A stretch of DNA of 25,560 nt, from IMG/VR virus record IMGVR_UViG_3300044970_003275, positions 1 to 25,560 of that record, one strand, 5' to 3'. Every line of letters begins with the position of its first letter. Position 1 is the first letter of the stretch. The notes under the pieces were generated by a model that worked only from the letters and a program-made list of their open reading frames with translations, searched no databases and was not told where the DNA came from. The position numbers and the translations under genes are program-made. This stretch comes from a virus. Below, piece after piece: positions 4,471 to 21,545 of the stretch.

Positions 4471-4820
4471 TGCCCTTCACCCTGCCAGCCAGCCCCCGGC
4501 CGATCTACCCGGCAACCGAAACTACCAAGCCGGAGCTGCGGGGCAGCCAATTTGACGACGGGCCAGAAGACCGCAAGGCCCTGGGCCTCAACCAGTTCCC
4601 CGTTACCCTGCCGCTGCAGTGGGCGCCGCTGCCAATGGATCAGGTCAAGATCCTCACCACCTTTTTTGAGGCGCGCCTGCGCAACAACCAGGCTTTTCTC
4701 TGGACGCCACCGGACCGCCCCCAAGCGCGTTGGCGCTGCCCGCAATGGTCGCTGGATGGGGTTGGCCGCGGCCTGTATGTGCTCAGGGCCGTCTTTGTGC
4801 AGTCGGTTGGGATCCGATGA
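4470..4820 (+). CDS. M: Minor tail protein M, first copy
   Basis: This 116-residue protein has the length and layout of lambda gpM (Phage_min_tail family), which acts at the tail tip complex around the end of the tape measure. The diagnostic FLWTPP motif lies at residues 76-81, after the central helical stretch (QVKILTTFFEARL), as in lambda where the motif reads SFLWTPP. The start is the ATG at 4470, overlapping the tape measure stop by one base; the gene ends in an ATGA overlap with the next gene, so translation is probably coupled throughout. Lambda has a single M gene, whereas here a second, longer member follows immediately. Confidence 0.88.
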   Translation: MPFTLPASPRPIYPATETTKPELRGSQFDDGPEDRKALGLNQFPVTLPLQWAPLPMDQVKILTTFFEARLRNNQAFLWTPPDRPQARWRCPQWSLDGVGRGLYVLRAVFVQSVGIR

Positions 4821-5725
4821 CCTACTCCACCTTCCCGGCGGTGCCGTTGAAAAGCGAGCTGAGCAAAGAGGTGCGCAGCCTCGCCACCAAACAGCCCTTG
4901 GGGGACGGCTACACCTACATCACCCAGTTCGGCCTCCATCCGCTGGAGGAGACCTGGCGAGTGCGGATGCTGATCAAGCTCAGTGAAGCGGCCACGGTTC
5001 GGTCGTTCCTGGAAGCTCGGGCAACCGATGGGAAACCATTCCTCTGGACGCCGCCAGACCATGCGGGGGGCAGCACTCCCATGTGGAAGGTCGAAGAATG
5101 GCCAATCGCCAGAAAATTTCAGTCCAGGGTAGAGGTTGATCTACTGCTGCGTCGGATTTGGGGGAAACTGGCACCACCTGGAGTCAGGATTGGTGGTGTA
5201 CCGCATTATTGCCGAAATCAACCTAACTTTGACCTATATCCTACTGCGGCGTTTGTTAGGTGGGTTGGAACGCAATACCAACGAAGAGGCTATGCTATCG
5301 CCACCGTTGCGCCCCCTATAACCTATCCAGTTAACACTGGCTGGCTGCCGCTACGTTCATCAAGCGGCCAACTCATAACGTACGGGTTGGGAGGAATAGA
5401 CCTAGATGGAGCGCCGTCCCTGAGATATAGCGCACAATTTTATTTGGGACCGTGGTATTCGAACATAGATGTCTACGTGGAAGCATACTTTGACGGAAGT
5501 GTTGGTGTCGGCGGCGTAGCTGATGTATTTTACCTATACACAGCCAACCCAAGTGAGTCGCTCCAAAGTAGTTTTACCAATTCAGGCATGGGGCTTGGCT
5601 TCAGCGCTCCCGAGACGCCCGACCTTGCCCGATCCAGGGGCCGCTGGGAATTTGCCAACTCTGCCTATCAACTCCAATTTACCTGGGCTGGATACTCCAG
5701 ACTGCGTTCAGGTGCCGTAATCTAA
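4817..5725 (+). CDS. Second gpM-like minor tail protein with a 200-residue C-terminal extension
   Basis: I chose the ATG at 4817 (ATGA overlap with the previous stop) rather than an earlier in-frame start at 4730 that lies inside the M gene; this gives 302 residues. The first 100 residues are gpM-like, with FLWTPP at residues 75-80, almost exactly where it sits in the first copy (76-81), so the two are probably tandem paralogues. Residues from about 105 to 302 are an added region rich in Tyr, Gly, Ser and Thr that looks beta-structured and that I do not recognise. The extension is more AT-rich than the gpM part, which suggests a separately acquired domain exposed at the tail tip. The gene ends three bases before gpL begins. 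Confidence 0.85.
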   Translation: MTYSTFPAVPLKSELSKEVRSLATKQPLGDGYTYITQFGLHPLEETWRVRMLIKLSEAATVRSFLEARATDGKPFLWTPPDHAGGSTPMWKVEEWPIARKFQSRVEVDLLLRRIWGKLAPPGVRIGGVPHYCRNQPNFDLYPTAAFVRWVGTQYQRRGYAIATVAPPITYPVNTGWLPLRSSSGQLITYGLGGIDLDGAPSLRYSAQFYLGPWYSNIDVYVEAYFDGSVGVGGVADVFYLYTANPSESLQSSFTNSGMGLGFSAPETPDLARSRGRWEFANSAYQLQFTWAGYSRLRSGAVI

Positions 5726-6481: not shown

Positions 6482-7219
6482 ATGAACAGCCAGACCCGTG
6501 CTGCAGCGCTGCTTGCCGCAGTGGCCGAGGCCCCCCGCGAAAGCTGCGGCCTGGTGGTGGTGGTGGGCGGCAAGGAGCGCTACTGGCCCTGCCGCAACAT
6601 CAACCCGATTCAGACCGATTTCAGCATTGATCCAGCCGACTACCTGGCCGCCGCCCGGGCCGGAACAATCGTGGCGGTGATCCATTCCCATCCCGACGGC
6701 TTCCCACATCCATCTGATGCCGATCGCACCGGCTGCGAGAAGTGGGGGATCCCCTGGCACATCGTTTCCCCGCACCTGGGTGACGGCCAGGGCCAGTGGT
6801 TCAGCTTTGAGCCCAGTGGCTGGAAGCCGCCGTTGATCGGCAGGCAATGGTCATGGGGGGTTCACGACTGCTGGGCGCTAGTACGGGACTGGTACGCCGA
6901 GCAAAACCTGCACTTGCCGGACTTCGAGCGGCCCGCTGACCCAGAAGAGTTCCTGCTCCAGCCCCTGTTCGAGAGCCTGTACGCCGAGGCCGGCTTCTTT
7001 GTGGTGCCCCGGGAGCAGATCCGGGCTGGCGATGCCGTTCTGCAAAGCCGTTTCGTGCCCGGGCTCAACCATGTGGGCGTCATCCTGCCCGATGGCCGCC
7101 TGCTCCATCACGTCGAAGGCCGCCTGTCGAGCTCCGACATCTACGGCGACGGCCACCAGCGCAGCACCGGCCGGGTGCTGCGACCGCTTGCCTGGAAGGA
7201 CAAGAGCCCCTGGACTTAG
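6482..7219 (+). CDS. K: Tail tip protein K: JAMM metalloprotease plus NlpC/P60 peptidase
   Basis: This 245-residue protein has the two-domain structure of lambda gpK. The N-terminal half is a JAB/MPN (JAMM) domain with Glu20 in PRESCGLV and the zinc motif HSHPDGFPHPSDAD, giving His68, His70, Ser78 and Asp81 in exact HxH-x7-S-xx-D spacing. The C-terminal half is an NlpC/P60 papain-like peptidase with Cys130 (HDCWALVRDWY) and His197 (LNHVGVILPDGRLLHH), probably cutting peptidoglycan during DNA entry. All recognisable catalytic residues are present, so both domains look active. In lambda the next gene is I; here it is separated by 2.1 kb of opposite-strand genes. Confidence 0.93.
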   Translation: MNSQTRAAALLAAVAEAPRESCGLVVVVGGKERYWPCRNINPIQTDFSIDPADYLAAARAGTIVAVIHSHPDGFPHPSDADRTGCEKWGIPWHIVSPHLGDGQGQWFSFEPSGWKPPLIGRQWSWGVHDCWALVRDWYAEQNLHLPDFERPADPEEFLLQPLFESLYAEAGFFVVPREQIRAGDAVLQSRFVPGLNHVGVILPDGRLLHHVEGRLSSSDIYGDGHQRSTGRVLRPLAWKDKSPWT

Positions 7220-7281
7220 GGGCCCTTGGGCGCTCGCCGCCGCCCCCCGAGCGTTTGCCGTTCCCCGGGCGTTATCAAATC

Positions 7282-7308
7282 GAACTATCCGATATTTCCG
7301 GACAGTTC
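7282..7308. terminator. Inverted repeat at the 3' end of the KilA-N gene
   Basis: GAACTATCCG (7282-7291) and CGGACAGTTC (7299-7308) pair at nine of ten positions around a 7-base AT-rich loop. The structure lies between the convergent ends of gpK and the KilA-N gene and includes part of the KilA-N stop codon. There is no clear T-tract, so a terminator role is an inference from its position. Confidence 0.3.
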
Positions 7309-8398
7309 AGAGGCGCTCGAACAGCCAGCTGGGCCGCCCTGGGGGGAGGGTGCTGCCGAGATCACCGCAGCCGATTTTGCCCTGGCCGATCAGCTGCCAG
7401 CCATCGCGGCTGGCGCCGATGCCGTGGTGGCGCGACCAATCGTTGATGCGGTGGGTGGTGATTCCCAGGATCCGGGCCAGCTCCGGGCCCGCAATCTGCT
7501 CACCTCGCCGGAACCGCCGAACCTGATCAGGCTCGAGCGGCCGCAGGTGCCGGCAGACCATGGTTTCGGGTGGCTGGGCCGCCTGCCAGGGATCGGGCCC
7601 CGGCAACGGCGCCGATGAACGGCGAAGGCGCCGGACCGGCAAATCCGCTGGGGTTGGGGTGGCCGGGGTTGCCGGCAGGGCAGCCACCGAACCAGCCGCC
7701 GAGAAATCTTCGGCAACTGGTAAGGCGGGCTTACAGGTTGGGGGGAGCACCAGCTGGGCATAGCGCTGCACCAACCAGCCCATGAAATGTGTGGCCAGGG
7801 GCCGGGCATAGCGCAGCGAGCGCGGCACCTCATGCGCCGCTCGGCCCTCGATGGCAGCATCCACCTCCTTGGCATAGGCCGCAACGATCTCGTTCCAGTC
7901 CGCAGGGGCGGTCACCGCCGAAAACCCAAAAGCCGTGGCGGATCCCCCCAGGGGGGTGGCTCCCGTGCCGGCCGCGGCGGCCCTGGCCCCTTGGGTCTGA
8001 GCCCCCTGGGCACCGGCATGCTGGGCCGCGGCGCCCTGGGCCTGGGCCTGCACCACCTCCAGAAACCAGCCATCCATCCAGACGGCAAAGGCGGGACTGA
8101 TCCACCGGGCCAAATCCACGGCCAACCTGGGGTGGATCCAGGTGCCCTGAAGCTCAGGCCGGCCGCCTTGGATCGACCGAATCAAGCCCCCAATTCCCGT
8201 GGCCGGAAATCCGGTAACGGCTGCAAGCGCAGCGATATACGACTGTGTTCGGTCGTTTGCCTGATAGTGATTCCAACGGCGTTGCCCGGCTTGGCACATG
8301 GCCGTGGCGTTCACGTACCCGTCAGCTGCACTGCGATGGATCTCCACACCGTTCCAGATGCGGCAATCCATCCCCAGGGGGAAAGCCAAGCTATTCAT
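7307..8398 (-). CDS. KilA-N domain protein on the opposite strand (moron)
   Basis: The 363-residue product begins with a KilA-N DNA-binding domain at about residues 14-112 (IWNGVEIHRSAADGYVNATAM, then RWNHYQAND, TWIHPRLAVDLARWISP, FAVWMDGWFLEV). This domain is common in proteins of large DNA viruses, phages and phage antirepressors. Next comes a low-complexity Ala/Gln/Gly linker (about 115-145), a middle region with a helical WNEIVAAYAKEVDAAI segment, a Pro/Ala-rich stretch and a C-terminal segment (GPELARILGITTHRINDWSRHHGI) that looks like a helix-turn-helix. The ATG at 8398 has GGGAG five bases upstream. The gene lies inside the late tail operon but is read against it, the usual arrangement for a moron expressed from its own promoter in the lysogen. 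A regulatory or superinfection-related function is inference. Confidence 0.88.
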   Translation of the reverse strand: MNSLAFPLGMDCRIWNGVEIHRSAADGYVNATAMCQAGQRRWNHYQANDRTQSYIAALAAVTGFPATGIGGLIRSIQGGRPELQGTWIHPRLAVDLARWISPAFAVWMDGWFLEVVQAQAQGAAAQHAGAQGAQTQGARAAAAGTGATPLGGSATAFGFSAVTAPADWNEIVAAYAKEVDAAIEGRAAHEVPRSLRYARPLATHFMGWLVQRYAQLVLPPTCKPALPVAEDFSAAGSVAALPATPATPTPADLPVRRLRRSSAPLPGPDPWQAAQPPETMVCRHLRPLEPDQVRRFRRGEQIAGPELARILGITTHRINDWSRHHGIGASRDGWQLIGQGKIGCGDLGSTLPPGRPSWLFERL

Positions 8399-8729
8399 GC
8401 GTGCTCCCGCTCGAAACGGGGCTATCGGTAAGCCTCGATGTCGCCATCGAGAAACCAGACATTACTGCATCCGGCTTGTAAAGGAATTAGGTGGAGGCGG
8501 GCCTCCGATACCGGTGCCCAGGCCTGATGCCCAAGCTGAGCAGCGACCGACGACACTGCCCCCGGCGCCCTCGTTGCCGTTTGGGCCGACCCACCCCCAA
8601 GTCGAGCGTACACGGTTCAGGATGAAAGGCCGGGCAAGAAAGGGGGGGGCTGGAGGCGGTTTCAGAGGCATGGCTCTGGAGGGGCTCCAGAGGCACGGGG
8701 CTGGGTGGGCCCCAGGGCCACGGGGTTGG
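8399..8729. other. Intergenic stretch between two moron genes, with hairpins
   Basis: I see no credible gene in these 331 bases on either strand; the open frames crossing it are GC-driven shadows. It holds two clean inverted repeats, GGAGGC-GG-GCCTCC at 8493-8506 and CTCTGGAG-GGG-CTCCAGAG at 8674-8692, and a G-rich run near 8642-8649. The promoter of the KilA-N gene should lie here because that gene is read leftward from 8398, but I cannot identify a convincing -35/-10 pair. Confidence 0.6.
8674..8692. repeat. Perfect 8-bp stem hairpin downstream of the PspC gene
   Basis: CTCTGGAG (8674-8681) and CTCCAGAG (8685-8692) form a perfect 8-bp stem with a GGG loop, about 38 bases past the stop of the leftward PspC gene. 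No T-tract follows on the minus strand. It may stabilise or end the PspC transcript. Confidence 0.45.
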
Positions 8730-9098
8730 CTAGTTGATGCCCAAAGCCTTTGCTCTCAGCTTTGTGGCCTCTTCATCCGAAATCAAAAGGTCGTCCTTCA
8801 TCTTTTGAATTCTTTGCAGCTCAACTTGAAGCGTATCCAATGAAGGACCCGCAGGCAGTCTGTTGGGAGCGTCTTCAGATGCAGCTTTTTTCTGCTGCTC
8901 AAGTTGTTCCTTGCTGGCAACGGGAATAGAGATTCCCATCACGATGTAGATGATGATTCCAACGAACCAGAAAATAGAGCCAATGGCGAACAACATACGG
9001 TAGGCCACAGCAGAGCCTCTGCCACTGACCTCTAACCCTTGGCATACCCCCGCAAGAATCGCCCCTTCTTTAACGCGATACAGCTTTGATTCAGACAT
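8730..9098 (-). CDS. PspC-domain membrane protein with SHOCT-like tail (moron)
   Basis: The 122-residue product starts with a PspC-like domain: LYRVKEGAILAGVCQGLE (residues 6-23) corresponds to the family's LYR...IAGVCGGLA, followed by one hydrophobic membrane segment at about 34-60 ending in ISIP. Residues about 62-80 are a charged linker, and residues 88-122 (DTLQVELQRIQKMKDDLLI, then SDEEATKLRAKALG) resemble the SHOCT domain, a short C-terminal domain often attached to membrane proteins. PspC is known as an envelope-stress membrane protein; the fusion with SHOCT and its place in a tail operon suggest a lysogen-expressed envelope protein, perhaps altering phage entry. That role is inference. 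The start is the ATG at 9098 with only a weak ribosome site. A poor promoter match (TTGCAA, 17 bases, TAATGT on the minus strand) lies just upstream. Confidence 0.85.
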   Translation of the reverse strand: MSESKLYRVKEGAILAGVCQGLEVSGRGSAVAYRMLFAIGSIFWFVGIIIYIVMGISIPVASKEQLEQQKKAASEDAPNRLPAGPSLDTLQVELQRIQKMKDDLLISDEEATKLRAKALGIN

Positions 9099-9190
9099 GA
9101 AAACAAGACGACTTCTTCGACATTAGCGGCGCATGACTACCCTTGCAACAAAAAGTACACGGTTCCAAGGGGGCCGCGGCGGCAACTTGG

Positions 9191-9218
9191 ACCATTTGCG
9201 TGCGGCCACGAAAATGGT
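9191..9218. repeat. 28-bp hairpin between the moron island and gpI
   Basis: ACCATTT (9191-9197) pairs perfectly with AAATGGT (9212-9218); after one G/A mismatch, CGTG and CACG pair around a CGGC loop. This is the only strong structure in the 196 bases between the leftward PspC gene and the rightward gpI gene. It could be an operator for the divergent PspC promoter, a processing site, or structure in the late tail mRNA. Confidence 0.5.
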
Positions 9219-9294
9219 GCTGACCAGACCGCTCGCGCCAACCCCTGCCGTGCCACTGGAGTGGCCTCCGTAGCCTGGGGCTATTCAGTGGTCG

Positions 9295-9930
9295 GTGTCA
9301 TTGGAGCGAACGCTGCGCCTGTACGGGCCCCTGGCCGAGCGGACCGGATACACGGTTTTGAGCGCCAATATCGCCTCGATTGGCGAAGCCGTGCGGTTCC
9401 TGGTCGCCAATTGGCCCGATCTGGAGGCCCTCATCGCCGGATACGACTGGCTGCTGTCCGAGGGCAGCTACAACCTTGGCGCCGACGAGATTCACTACCC
9501 CCTCGGCAGCGAGGACATCCACCTGGTGCCGATCGTGAGCGGTTCAGGATCGGCCGGCGCCAAGATTGTGGGTGGCATTCTGCTGGTGGCCGCATCGTTT
9601 GCGGTGCCGGGCATTGGCCTGGCGGCCTTGGGGCCCACCCTGTTTGGCGCCGGCATGAGCCTGGCCCTGGGCGGTGCCGCCCAGCTGCTGACACCTTCAA
9701 CGCCCACTCCAGATCGCAACCGTGACCCCAAAGAAACCAACTCCTACTCGGTATCAGGGGTGCAGTTGACCTCAAGGGAGGGCACGCCCGTCAACATCCC
9801 AAGGGGCCGCATCGTCATGGGCGCCATCGTCATCTCAGCCGGCATCAGCACAAGTGAGTTGCCTGGGGCGGGCGCCAACAAGCGATCCATGACCCTGGTC
9901 GAAGCGATCCAGGCGACGGGCAAGCGATGA
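9295..9930 (+). CDS. I: Tail assembly protein I
   Basis: The 211-residue product matches lambda gpI (Lambda_tail_I family), needed for assembly of the tail tip. It has the ubiquitin-like N-terminal part (LRLYGPLAERTGY, IHLVPIVSGSG) followed by a Gly/Ala-rich hydrophobic region at about 88-132, as expected. An in-frame TAG at 9271-9273 limits the start. GTG at 9295 is the first candidate and TTG at 9301 the next; neither has a convincing ribosome site. In lambda-type operons this gene follows K closely. Here it follows the inverted moron island, so its original translation signals may have been disturbed. It overlaps gpJ by ATGA. Confidence 0.87.
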   Translation: MSLERTLRLYGPLAERTGYTVLSANIASIGEAVRFLVANWPDLEALIAGYDWLLSEGSYNLGADEIHYPLGSEDIHLVPIVSGSGSAGAKIVGGILLVAASFAVPGIGLAALGPTLFGAGMSLALGGAAQLLTPSTPTPDRNRDPKETNSYSVSGVQLTSREGTPVNIPRGRIVMGAIVISAGISTSELPGAGANKRSMTLVEAIQATGKR

Positions 9931-20151: not shown

Positions 20152-20267
20152 AAAACCAAGACCCCGATGGGCCAGCTGATTGAGGTTGAGGCTCAAGCGG
20201 ACCGAGCAAGTCACGAACTAGGCACCGGCCAGACCAAACCCGTTGCCAGGCCTAGCTGTTGCTCAAA

Positions 20268-20309
20268 CTCATAATTCGCCTTAGCCGAGTTCGATCCTCG
20301 GGACCCCCA
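20268..20309 (+). other. attP: attP core: 3' half of a CAU-anticodon tRNA gene
   Basis: Read as tRNA, this segment gives an anticodon loop CTCATAA (20268-20274), the 3' strand of the anticodon stem TTCGC, a 5-base variable loop, a perfect T-stem/loop CCGAG-TTCGATC-CTCGG (20285-20301), the acceptor 3' strand GACCCCC and the discriminator A (20309). All spacings are canonical and CTCATAA is the loop of Met-type tRNAs. No 5' half (an acceptor strand GGGGGTC) lies upstream, so this is not a complete tRNA. Integrases of this type commonly recombine in the 3' half of a tRNA gene and carry that half on the phage. The integrase begins 130 bases downstream. Confidence 0.72.
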
Positions 20310-20382
20310 TCCCAAAAACCATAGTCAGGACAAGGGATCTTATCCTGCTGTGGCCATTCAGCCGGGCATTCAGAAGGCACAA

Positions 20383-20434
20383 AAAGGCCCGTAAAGGCCC
20401 GCAAGGGGCCAAAGTAGGCACGCTTTTAGGCACG
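20383..20434 (+). repeat. Short direct repeats upstream of integrase (arm-site candidates)
   Basis: AAAGGCCCG occurs at 20383-20391 and 20393-20401 (period 10), and TAGGCACG at 20415-20422 and 20427-20434 (period 12). Clustered short repeats between an att core and its integrase gene are typical of arm-type integrase or excisionase binding sites. This is an inference. Confidence 0.4.
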
Positions 20435-20438
20435 GTCG

Positions 20439-21545
20439 ATGCCTCCCAAGGACCCGTATCTCGCCCGAGTCAACCGGGCCCTCCGTGCACTCGGAGCCAG
20501 CGTGTCGATGGAGGTCACGCCGTCCGGCGGCCGGCTGCGGTTGCGGGGCACCCTGCCAATGGCAGATGGCACCTGGAAGCAACGCCGGATCGCCACCGCC
20601 TTTCCCTATCCAGCCGGGATTGACCAAGCCCGGGAGCTGGCCGAGCAGCTGGGCCAGGACATCGAGCTGCATCGCCGCGGCCTTCAGCCGTTCCCTTTTG
20701 ACCGCTGGGCCCAGGCTGGTGCCGGATCGAGCAACTGTGCTGCCCGGGAAAGCATCAGCGGGCATGAAGCGATTCGGCGGACCGAGATCTGGTGGCACGA
20801 GCGGCGCCAGCGTGGTCCGAAATCGGCGGTGAGCTGGGCGACGGCCTACGGGGGGCCGCTGCGGCCACTGCTGCAGCAGCAGGATGTGACGCTCAACATT
20901 CTGCGAGCCTTGGTGGCAAGCAAGCCTGTTGGTGGGTGCGCAAGGCGCAAGGCGGCATTGGCAGCGACGGCTGTGGCGCAGGCCCTGGCAATGGGGATGG
21001 AGGCTGTGCAAGAGCTGCGGGATCTCGGGAAGGGCTACAGCCCCTCGAAAGCGCGGCCGCGCAGCTTGCCCGATGACCAGGTGATCATCGATGCGATCGA
21101 TGGAATGCCCGCCAATTGGCAGTGGGTCGCCGGCATCTGCGCCACCTATGGCACCCGCCCCCACGAGGCCCTGCTGATGGCCTGTGTCGAACGCAATGGT
21201 CTGGCGGTGATCCGGGCGGGAAAAACTGGTGCTCGAAAGAGCCTGCCGCTGCCGAAGGCCTGGATCGAGCGATGGAACCTCCAGGAGCAACGGCTGCCGG
21301 CAATCAATTTCGAACGGGACAGCCGAACCGTGGGGGCGCAGCTGGCGGTGGCCTTTCGCCGGTTCCAAGTGCCGTTTCAGCCGTACGACCTTCGCCATGC
21401 CTGGGCCGTGCGGGCCATCTCCAACCCGCAGATCAGCCCATCTCTGGCAGCCAAGAGCCTGGGCCATTCCTTGATGGTCCACACCACGCTGTACCAGCGT
21501 TATTTCGACAATGACTCAATGGCATCACTTGTGGCGCAGATGTGA
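20439..21545 (+). CDS. int: Tyrosine recombinase, phage integrase
   Basis: The 368-residue product has the C-terminal catalytic layout of tyrosine recombinases: Arg240 in ATYGTRPHEALL, Arg319 in YDLRHAWAV, His343 in LGHSLMVHT and the nucleophile Tyr352 nine residues later (TTLYQRY). The usual first histidine of the H-x-x-R box is Tyr316 here, a change also seen in other phage integrases. The N-terminal part (residues 1-200) includes an arm-binding-like segment and a helical core-binding domain (NILRALVASKP ... AVAQALAMGME). The ATG at 20439 directly follows the repeat cluster. The gene is the only rightward one in the right half and ends overlapping the convergent Xis-like gene by 21 bases. 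Confidence 0.9.
   Translation: MPPKDPYLARVNRALRALGASVSMEVTPSGGRLRLRGTLPMADGTWKQRRIATAFPYPAGIDQARELAEQLGQDIELHRRGLQPFPFDRWAQAGAGSSNCAARESISGHEAIRRTEIWWHERRQRGPKSAVSWATAYGGPLRPLLQQQDVTLNILRALVASKPVGGCARRKAALAATAVAQALAMGMEAVQELRDLGKGYSPSKARPRSLPDDQVIIDAIDGMPANWQWVAGICATYGTRPHEALLMACVERNGLAVIRAGKTGARKSLPLPKAWIERWNLQEQRLPAINFERDSRTVGAQLAVAFRRFQVPFQPYDLRHAWAVRAISNPQISPSLAAKSLGHSLMVHTTLYQRYFDNDSMASLVAQM

Follow-up and report, generated by a model that had tools for sequence, protein, structure and literature searches.

The window analyzed in this work is a stretch of 25,560 nucleotides (IMG/VR record IMGVR_UViG_3300044970_003275) in which the tail genes K and I of a phage are separated by a minus-strand pair of genes, a KilA-N gene (7307-8398) and then a gene for a PspC-domain membrane protein (8730-9098). 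Between these two genes, upstream of KilA and on the same strand, lies a structured RNA element which we propose to be an antisense sRNA. The features discussed below are the following, with coordinates referring to the window unless L118 is named.

6482-7219, plus strand: tail gene K, with JAB and NlpC/P60 domains (phrog_30 minor tail protein, E = 4.7e-84), intact left border
7307-8398, minus strand: KilA, a 363-aa protein made of a KilA-N domain (PF04383, E = 8e-21, residues 20-115), a disordered linker and a C-terminal HTH
8396-8398, minus strand: ATG start codon of KilA, from the sequence
8404-8421, minus strand: leader hairpin h2 (predicted fold) with the purine-rich (SD-like) GAGCGGGAG just 5' of the start codon, common to other KilA-N leaders
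8424-8429, minus strand: ACCGAT of the KilA leader, the putative antisense target; complementary to the loop of the RNA and predicted to be single-stranded between h1 and h2
8434-8451, minus strand: leader hairpin h1, CTCGATG-GCGA-CATCGAG (predicted fold), whose arms vary with compensation in other lineages
8459-8464, minus strand: -10-like TAATGT of the KilA leader, from the sequence; weak, with no consensus -35
8490-8600, minus strand: structured RNA element of about 110 nt, proposed antisense sRNA (covariation; covariance model R1, 70.5 bits with the window in the training set)
8546-8551, minus strand: hypervariable loop segment GTCGGT of the RNA element, complementary to 8424-8429
8605-8610, minus strand: -10-like TACGCT directly upstream of the RNA element (TA...T enrichment across 70 loci)
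8730-9098, minus strand: PspC-domain membrane protein, 122 aa (PF04024, 38.3 bits against a gathering cut-off of 25), separate cargo
9295-9930, plus strand: tail gene I, GTG start at 9295 (phrog_32 tail assembly protein, E = 1.2e-34), intact right border
20266-20309, plus strand: attP core of 44 b, identical to the 3' part of the host tRNA-Met; host-phage junction in contig L121
20439-21545, plus strand: tyrosine integrase, 368 aa, about 94% identical to the integrase beside tRNA-Met in L121 (PF00589 weak, 16.1 bits, under the cut-off)
L118:6156-6497, minus strand: 113-aa unknown protein between K and KilA, alternative island cargo
L118:8085-8342, plus strand: 85-aa protein with one TM-like stretch in place of PspC, alternative island cargo

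The pair of genes represents a precise insertion, since in more distant relatives (L124, L125, L126 and L101, whose J proteins are 41-58% identical to that of the window) there is no insert and the stop codon of K overlaps the start of I by a few bases (ATGA, TAATG or similar). An earlier, sequence-only reading of this DNA had proposed that two minus-strand genes were inserted precisely into a lambda-type tail operon, and the uninterrupted overlap in the relatives bears it out. The comparison with related phages with and without the island, which the same reading had called for, yielded distant relatives without the insert. Within the clade the arrangement is fixed and the cargo varies: KilA is present at the site in all seven close-clade contigs spanning K to I (window counted) and PspC in six of them. 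Both island genes are under purifying selection (pooled dN/dS of 0.39 for KilA and 0.18 for PspC) and are therefore not chance open reading frames. The approximately 110 nt ahead of gene I (9188-9294) are highly conserved across all close relatives despite the lost I/K overlap. The gene between M and L (4730-5725) shows 70-72% identity among relatives whose flanking genes are 91-98% identical, and its C-terminal half is found between L and K in L124 and L125.

The membrane protein had previously been labelled as a PspC-SHOCT protein; no Pfam match to SHOCT was obtained in its C-terminus at E ≤ 10. Relatives of PspC were absent from 50,697 phage records, are limited among viral contigs to this phage clade, and are rare in Cyanobiaceae (5 of 151). 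In L118 and L035 the gene is replaced by the unrelated plus-strand protein of 85 aa. Synonymous divergence between alleles of PspC (dS 0.51-0.64) is far above that of K (about 0.06) and I (about 0.12), which indicates that PspC has been swapped separately by recombination. Relatives of KilA occur in many phages, including dozens of lineages without PspC. The best explanation of these sequence comparisons is that PspC is a separate cargo, unrelated to the regulatory cassette of KilA.

The KilA protein belongs to the KilA-N family (PF04383, 74.3 bits against a gathering cut-off of 23.8) and has a weak YdaS/MerR HTH match at residues 305-330. Two modules are ordered in an AlphaFold2 model (residues 10-115 and 300-340, approximately), whose confidence is low overall (pLDDT 54.8), and sequence searches returned no solved structure matching the protein. 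Residues 33-92, approximately, are hypervariable and mosaic, and the remainder is nearly constant within the clade. Family resemblance and anatomy suggest that KilA-N is an antirepressor-like DNA-binding protein. In four loci (L041, L076, L077 and L079) the leader is separated from KilA-N by a small open reading frame of about 60 aa, reminiscent of icd-ant in P1 immI.

The phage is temperate, as it carries both a tyrosine integrase gene (20439-21545) and an attP core (20266-20309) with identity to the host attB; the 44-b core corresponds to a Cyanobium tRNA-Met and matches tRNA-Met exactly in 14 Cyanobiaceae genomes, and in contig L121 the tRNA-Met is joined to the phage integrase. Searches with the profiles PF00589 and PF00239 at first found no integrase in this phage clade, and a 370-aa open reading frame antisense to the gene (20370-21482, minus strand) is an annotation trap that hides it. 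In L131 (3729-4595, minus strand), with equivalents in L134 and L136, there is a conserved 288-aa protein whose similarity to large serine integrases is limited to the recombinase/zinc-ribbon part and in which no catalytic domain was found, perhaps a relic or a regulator; the phage itself uses the tyrosine integrase. The order in L121:1-3100 is tRNA-Met, phage integrase, a 94%-identical Cyanobiaceae DnaB fragment and then phage sequence from window position 8464 or thereabouts. Because of this junction of the island with a host dnaB fragment, an attachment site was at first suspected to lie between KilA and PspC, a candidate that was rejected given the real attP and integrase at 20266-21545; L121 is either a rearranged prophage or a chimeric assembly, and it was discarded as evidence for an attP in the island.

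The window record is an IMG/VR fragment, and a sister contig of 69,291 b bears a 102-b terminal repeat, on the grounds of which we take it to be a complete genome of about 69.2 kb. Two further contigs are circular permutations of this sister contig, which codes for a terminase, a portal, a primase, a sigma factor and a ParB-like protein. The phage is best explained as a siphovirus-like, temperate phage of picocyanobacteria, and the identity of the attP core with Cyanobiaceae tRNA-Met together with the L121 junction points to a freshwater picocyanobacterium as its probable host. No relative of J was detected among 251 Cyanobiaceae genomes searched for host prophage copies, and the RNA element was found in 7 of 400 genomes.

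The RNA element folds into a closing stem, a hairpin with a GNRA loop and a long arm tipped by a hypervariable loop, and no Rfam 15 family matches it. An alignment of 27 copies contains 27 pairs, with 99% of cells paired and 116 cells showing two-sided changes, where shuffles gave 37.5 and slid controls 9-23; as the aligned copies are partly related the shuffle counts alone overstate significance, whereas the slid controls keep this relatedness. With the covariance model the element was detected at 52 of the 55 KilA-N loci scanned in phages, and at none of 14 KilA-N loci from cyanobacterial genome contigs. A pattern scan based on the RNA only, and thus free of KilA, identified 82 copies, 62 of which are followed by KilA-N on the same strand, and the element recurs ahead of KilA-N genes in unrelated phages. 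One of its carriers is the cultured Synechococcus phage S-SRP02, which lies outside the training set (49.7 bits, E = 2e-8) and whose KilA-N protein (QTP86378.1) is 60% identical in the KilA-N domain; here too the loop and the leader match, although the gene sits in the early region beside a site-specific integrase and not, as in the window, in the tail operon. The hosts of the other element-bearing phages are probably also cyanobacteria. In L198 and L215 the gene behind the element and leader is not KilA-N but codes for a zinc-ribbon protein, whose Bro-N-like domain was called by sequence motif and not by profile. A short form of the element without the hypervariable arm was seen ahead of genes other than KilA-N in L188, L195, L218, L245 and L251.

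The KilA leader is ordered as h1, a short unpaired linker and then, in many copies, h2 containing the ribosome-binding site. The hypervariable loop of the RNA element is complementary to 6-8 nt of this mRNA leader, after h1 and before the ribosome-binding site; in the window the pair is GTCGGT (8546-8551) with ACCGAT (8424-8429), a short match of 6 bp including one G-U. The complementarity was first seen by eye in about twenty loci and tested statistically afterwards: over 53 non-redundant pairs the observed sum was 771.5 against a permutation mean of 468.8 (sd 15.9) and a maximum of 539.5, so that none of 100,000 permutations reached it, the score per pair being 14.6 with the own partner and 8.7 with swapped partners. 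Three loci were omitted from this set (L040, L205 and L237, where the hairpin detected was judged not to be the leader hairpin of the gene) and the script passed over twelve others in which it could detect no loop or no h1; a first unfiltered test on 57 pairs had the same outcome. Nineteen held-out pairs with new loops gave a sum of 273 against a permutation maximum of 223.5, and each of the 15 pairs of the fixed-register class matches at six out of six positions with at most one G-U. The signal is confined to the 0-12 nt past h1, the positional scan being flat elsewhere, and predicted single-strandedness is 0.63 for the target (0.46 for the whole leader) and 0.73 for the loop (0.37 for the whole RNA). 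Loop and target diversify together, several pairs switching jointly inside one phage species. The loop does not covary with the recognition segment of KilA-N, as the window and L112 share the segment and differ in the loop. We also considered the arms of h1 as operators covarying with that segment and rejected this, since the arms vary independently of the recognition alleles. L229 has two tandem RNA elements with different loops and one KilA-N gene, and a good leader match comes only from the nearer copy.

We consider it probable that the island is a regulatory cassette, in which a cis-encoded, trans-acting antisense RNA silences the antirepressor-like KilA-N gene, plus the unrelated PspC cargo. 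On the minus strand the cassette would consist, in this order, of a promoter-like site, the RNA of about 110 nt, a second promoter-like site, the leader (h1, target and h2) and the KilA-N-HTH gene. The exposed hypervariable loop would pair with the 6-8 nt target and block translation of KilA-N, translational repression being the simplest outcome because the target lies directly 5' of the ribosome-binding site. The RNA would keep the KilA-N gene silent in lysogens, and in trans it would silence the same gene of an incoming phage bearing a matching target; loop and target would then define an immunity group and co-diversify. We infer from these features that the RNA is a separate transcript, that it represses translation of an antirepressor and that it serves immunity; by analogy with known systems it probably sets superinfection immunity. 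The sequence-only reading had KilA expressed in the lysogen, but the RNA element and the leader, which it overlooked, point instead to a gene that is silent in lysogens.

The same complementarity could arise within a single molecule, if RNA element and KilA leader formed one transcript in which loop and target make an intramolecular pseudoknot, acting by attenuation or as a riboswitch-like sensor. Element and leader are indeed on the same strand and near each other in nearly all loci, and no clear terminator separates them in the window and in type-B copies, where a read-through transcript with pairing in cis is possible. Against this, promoter-like sites precede both element and leader, most of 70 loci having a -10-like hexamer (TA...T) 10-15 nt ahead of the element; these promoter assignments are drawn from positional enrichment across loci, and a sigma-70 consensus scan of the island returned no promoter matches. 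Of 54 type-A loci, 17 have terminator-like hairpins between element and leader, compared to 0.66 expected from shuffles. In L040 the element lies downstream of KilA and its loop TTAGACG still matches CGTCTA in the KilA leader, an arrangement suggestive of action in trans, and the sensing of a fixed ligand would hardly call for a loop and target that are hypervariable. The -10-like site, the terminator-like hairpins and L040 lead us to favor a separate trans-acting RNA, and we regard the single-transcript leader as unlikely.

Three further explanations give the island a different role. Should the KilA-N protein be an abortive-infection protein like BstA, the upstream element would be its self-immunity site, and the protein does match the BstA PHROG (phrog_6287, E = 1.2e-7), the BstA locus likewise having a cognate, variant-specific element next to a KilA-N protein (PMC8585504). 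However, this match covers residues 13-108, i.e., the KilA-N domain, with no homology to BstA beyond it, and the PADLOC defence profiles gave no match other than PglZ at E = 0.064. The aba element of BstA is DNA-based, is 63 bp long, spans the start codon and has CCCGCC direct repeats (PMC8585504), whereas the element here is RNA-like with a loop matching the leader, and no such repeats occur around the KilA start codon in the window; a BstA-like defence is accordingly highly unlikely. The view that KilA-N and PspC are a single lysogen-expressed system for exclusion or competition, as put forward by the sequence-only reading, would fit two adjacent, co-oriented genes both kept in six of seven site-spanning contigs, yet the absence of PspC in L118 and L035, the different divergence histories of the two genes and the occurrence of KilA without PspC elsewhere make it very improbable. 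That a mobile element carries KilA-N, with the hairpins as its DNA ends or recognition sites, is suggested by the cassette being located at different genome places in different phages, but no target duplication and no transposase were seen, the RNA element is not a conserved boundary, and the loop-leader complementarity and GNRA-like loops fit an RNA, which leaves this the most improbable of explanations.

The trans-acting antisense RNA that we favor has its closest counterpart in C4 (RF01695), which has two complementary loop/target pairs, a'/a and b'/b; in our case a single loop-target pair stands out and one target site was found, the hypervariable loop being the loop of the RNA that was examined. 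C4 of P1 and P7 (immI) is a small structured antisense RNA of the antirepressor operon, in which the RNA loops carry complementary sequences that pair with the ant mRNA close to its ribosome-binding site, and C4 variants differ in specificity and so bring about heteroimmunity (PMC12197685; PMC8201110). The RNA element resembles C4 in that it has a loop whose sequence complements the leader of its linked gene close to the ribosome-binding site, and by this analogy would also act in trans and confer heteroimmunity. It differs from C4 in its fold, with one hypervariable loop on a long arm next to the closing stem and GNRA hairpin, and in the lack of any RF01695 match (at E ≤ 1 in the window and at E ≤ 5 in L095 and L061). 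It also differs in its target, a KilA-N/Bro-N gene of phages that probably infect cyanobacteria, and in the dozens of specificities that are visible. The sar RNA of P22 is a phage antisense RNA which represses translation of the antirepressor ant (PMC12197685); unlike the pairing of sar with the ant mRNA, the contact here would be a short one between loop and leader, made by a hypervariable loop on a conserved scaffold.

No published description of the RNA element was found in the open-access literature searched, which is not proof of novelty, and the RNA looks like an off-switch for KilA-N, and possibly an immunity label, of a kind that has not been described before. To our knowledge, little is known of how temperate cyanophages maintain lysogeny and exclude their relatives. 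The broader proposal is that superinfection immunity in freshwater cyanophages is encoded by phage antisense RNAs of a hitherto undescribed family, in which a constant scaffold presents a hypervariable loop silencing the KilA-N or Bro-N antirepressor of any phage whose leader matches, with many RNA-coded immunity groups and several of them inside a single phage species; on this our judgement is evenly balanced. If it is true, the code of immunity specificity would be readable from sequence, as loop-leader pairing would predict which phages share immunity, and a large natural set of loop/target pairs would be available for studying how RNA-coded immunity diversifies. The KilA-N genes of these phages would gain a testable role, and the RNA-based control of antirepressors known from enterobacterial phages would recur in other hosts on an unrelated scaffold.
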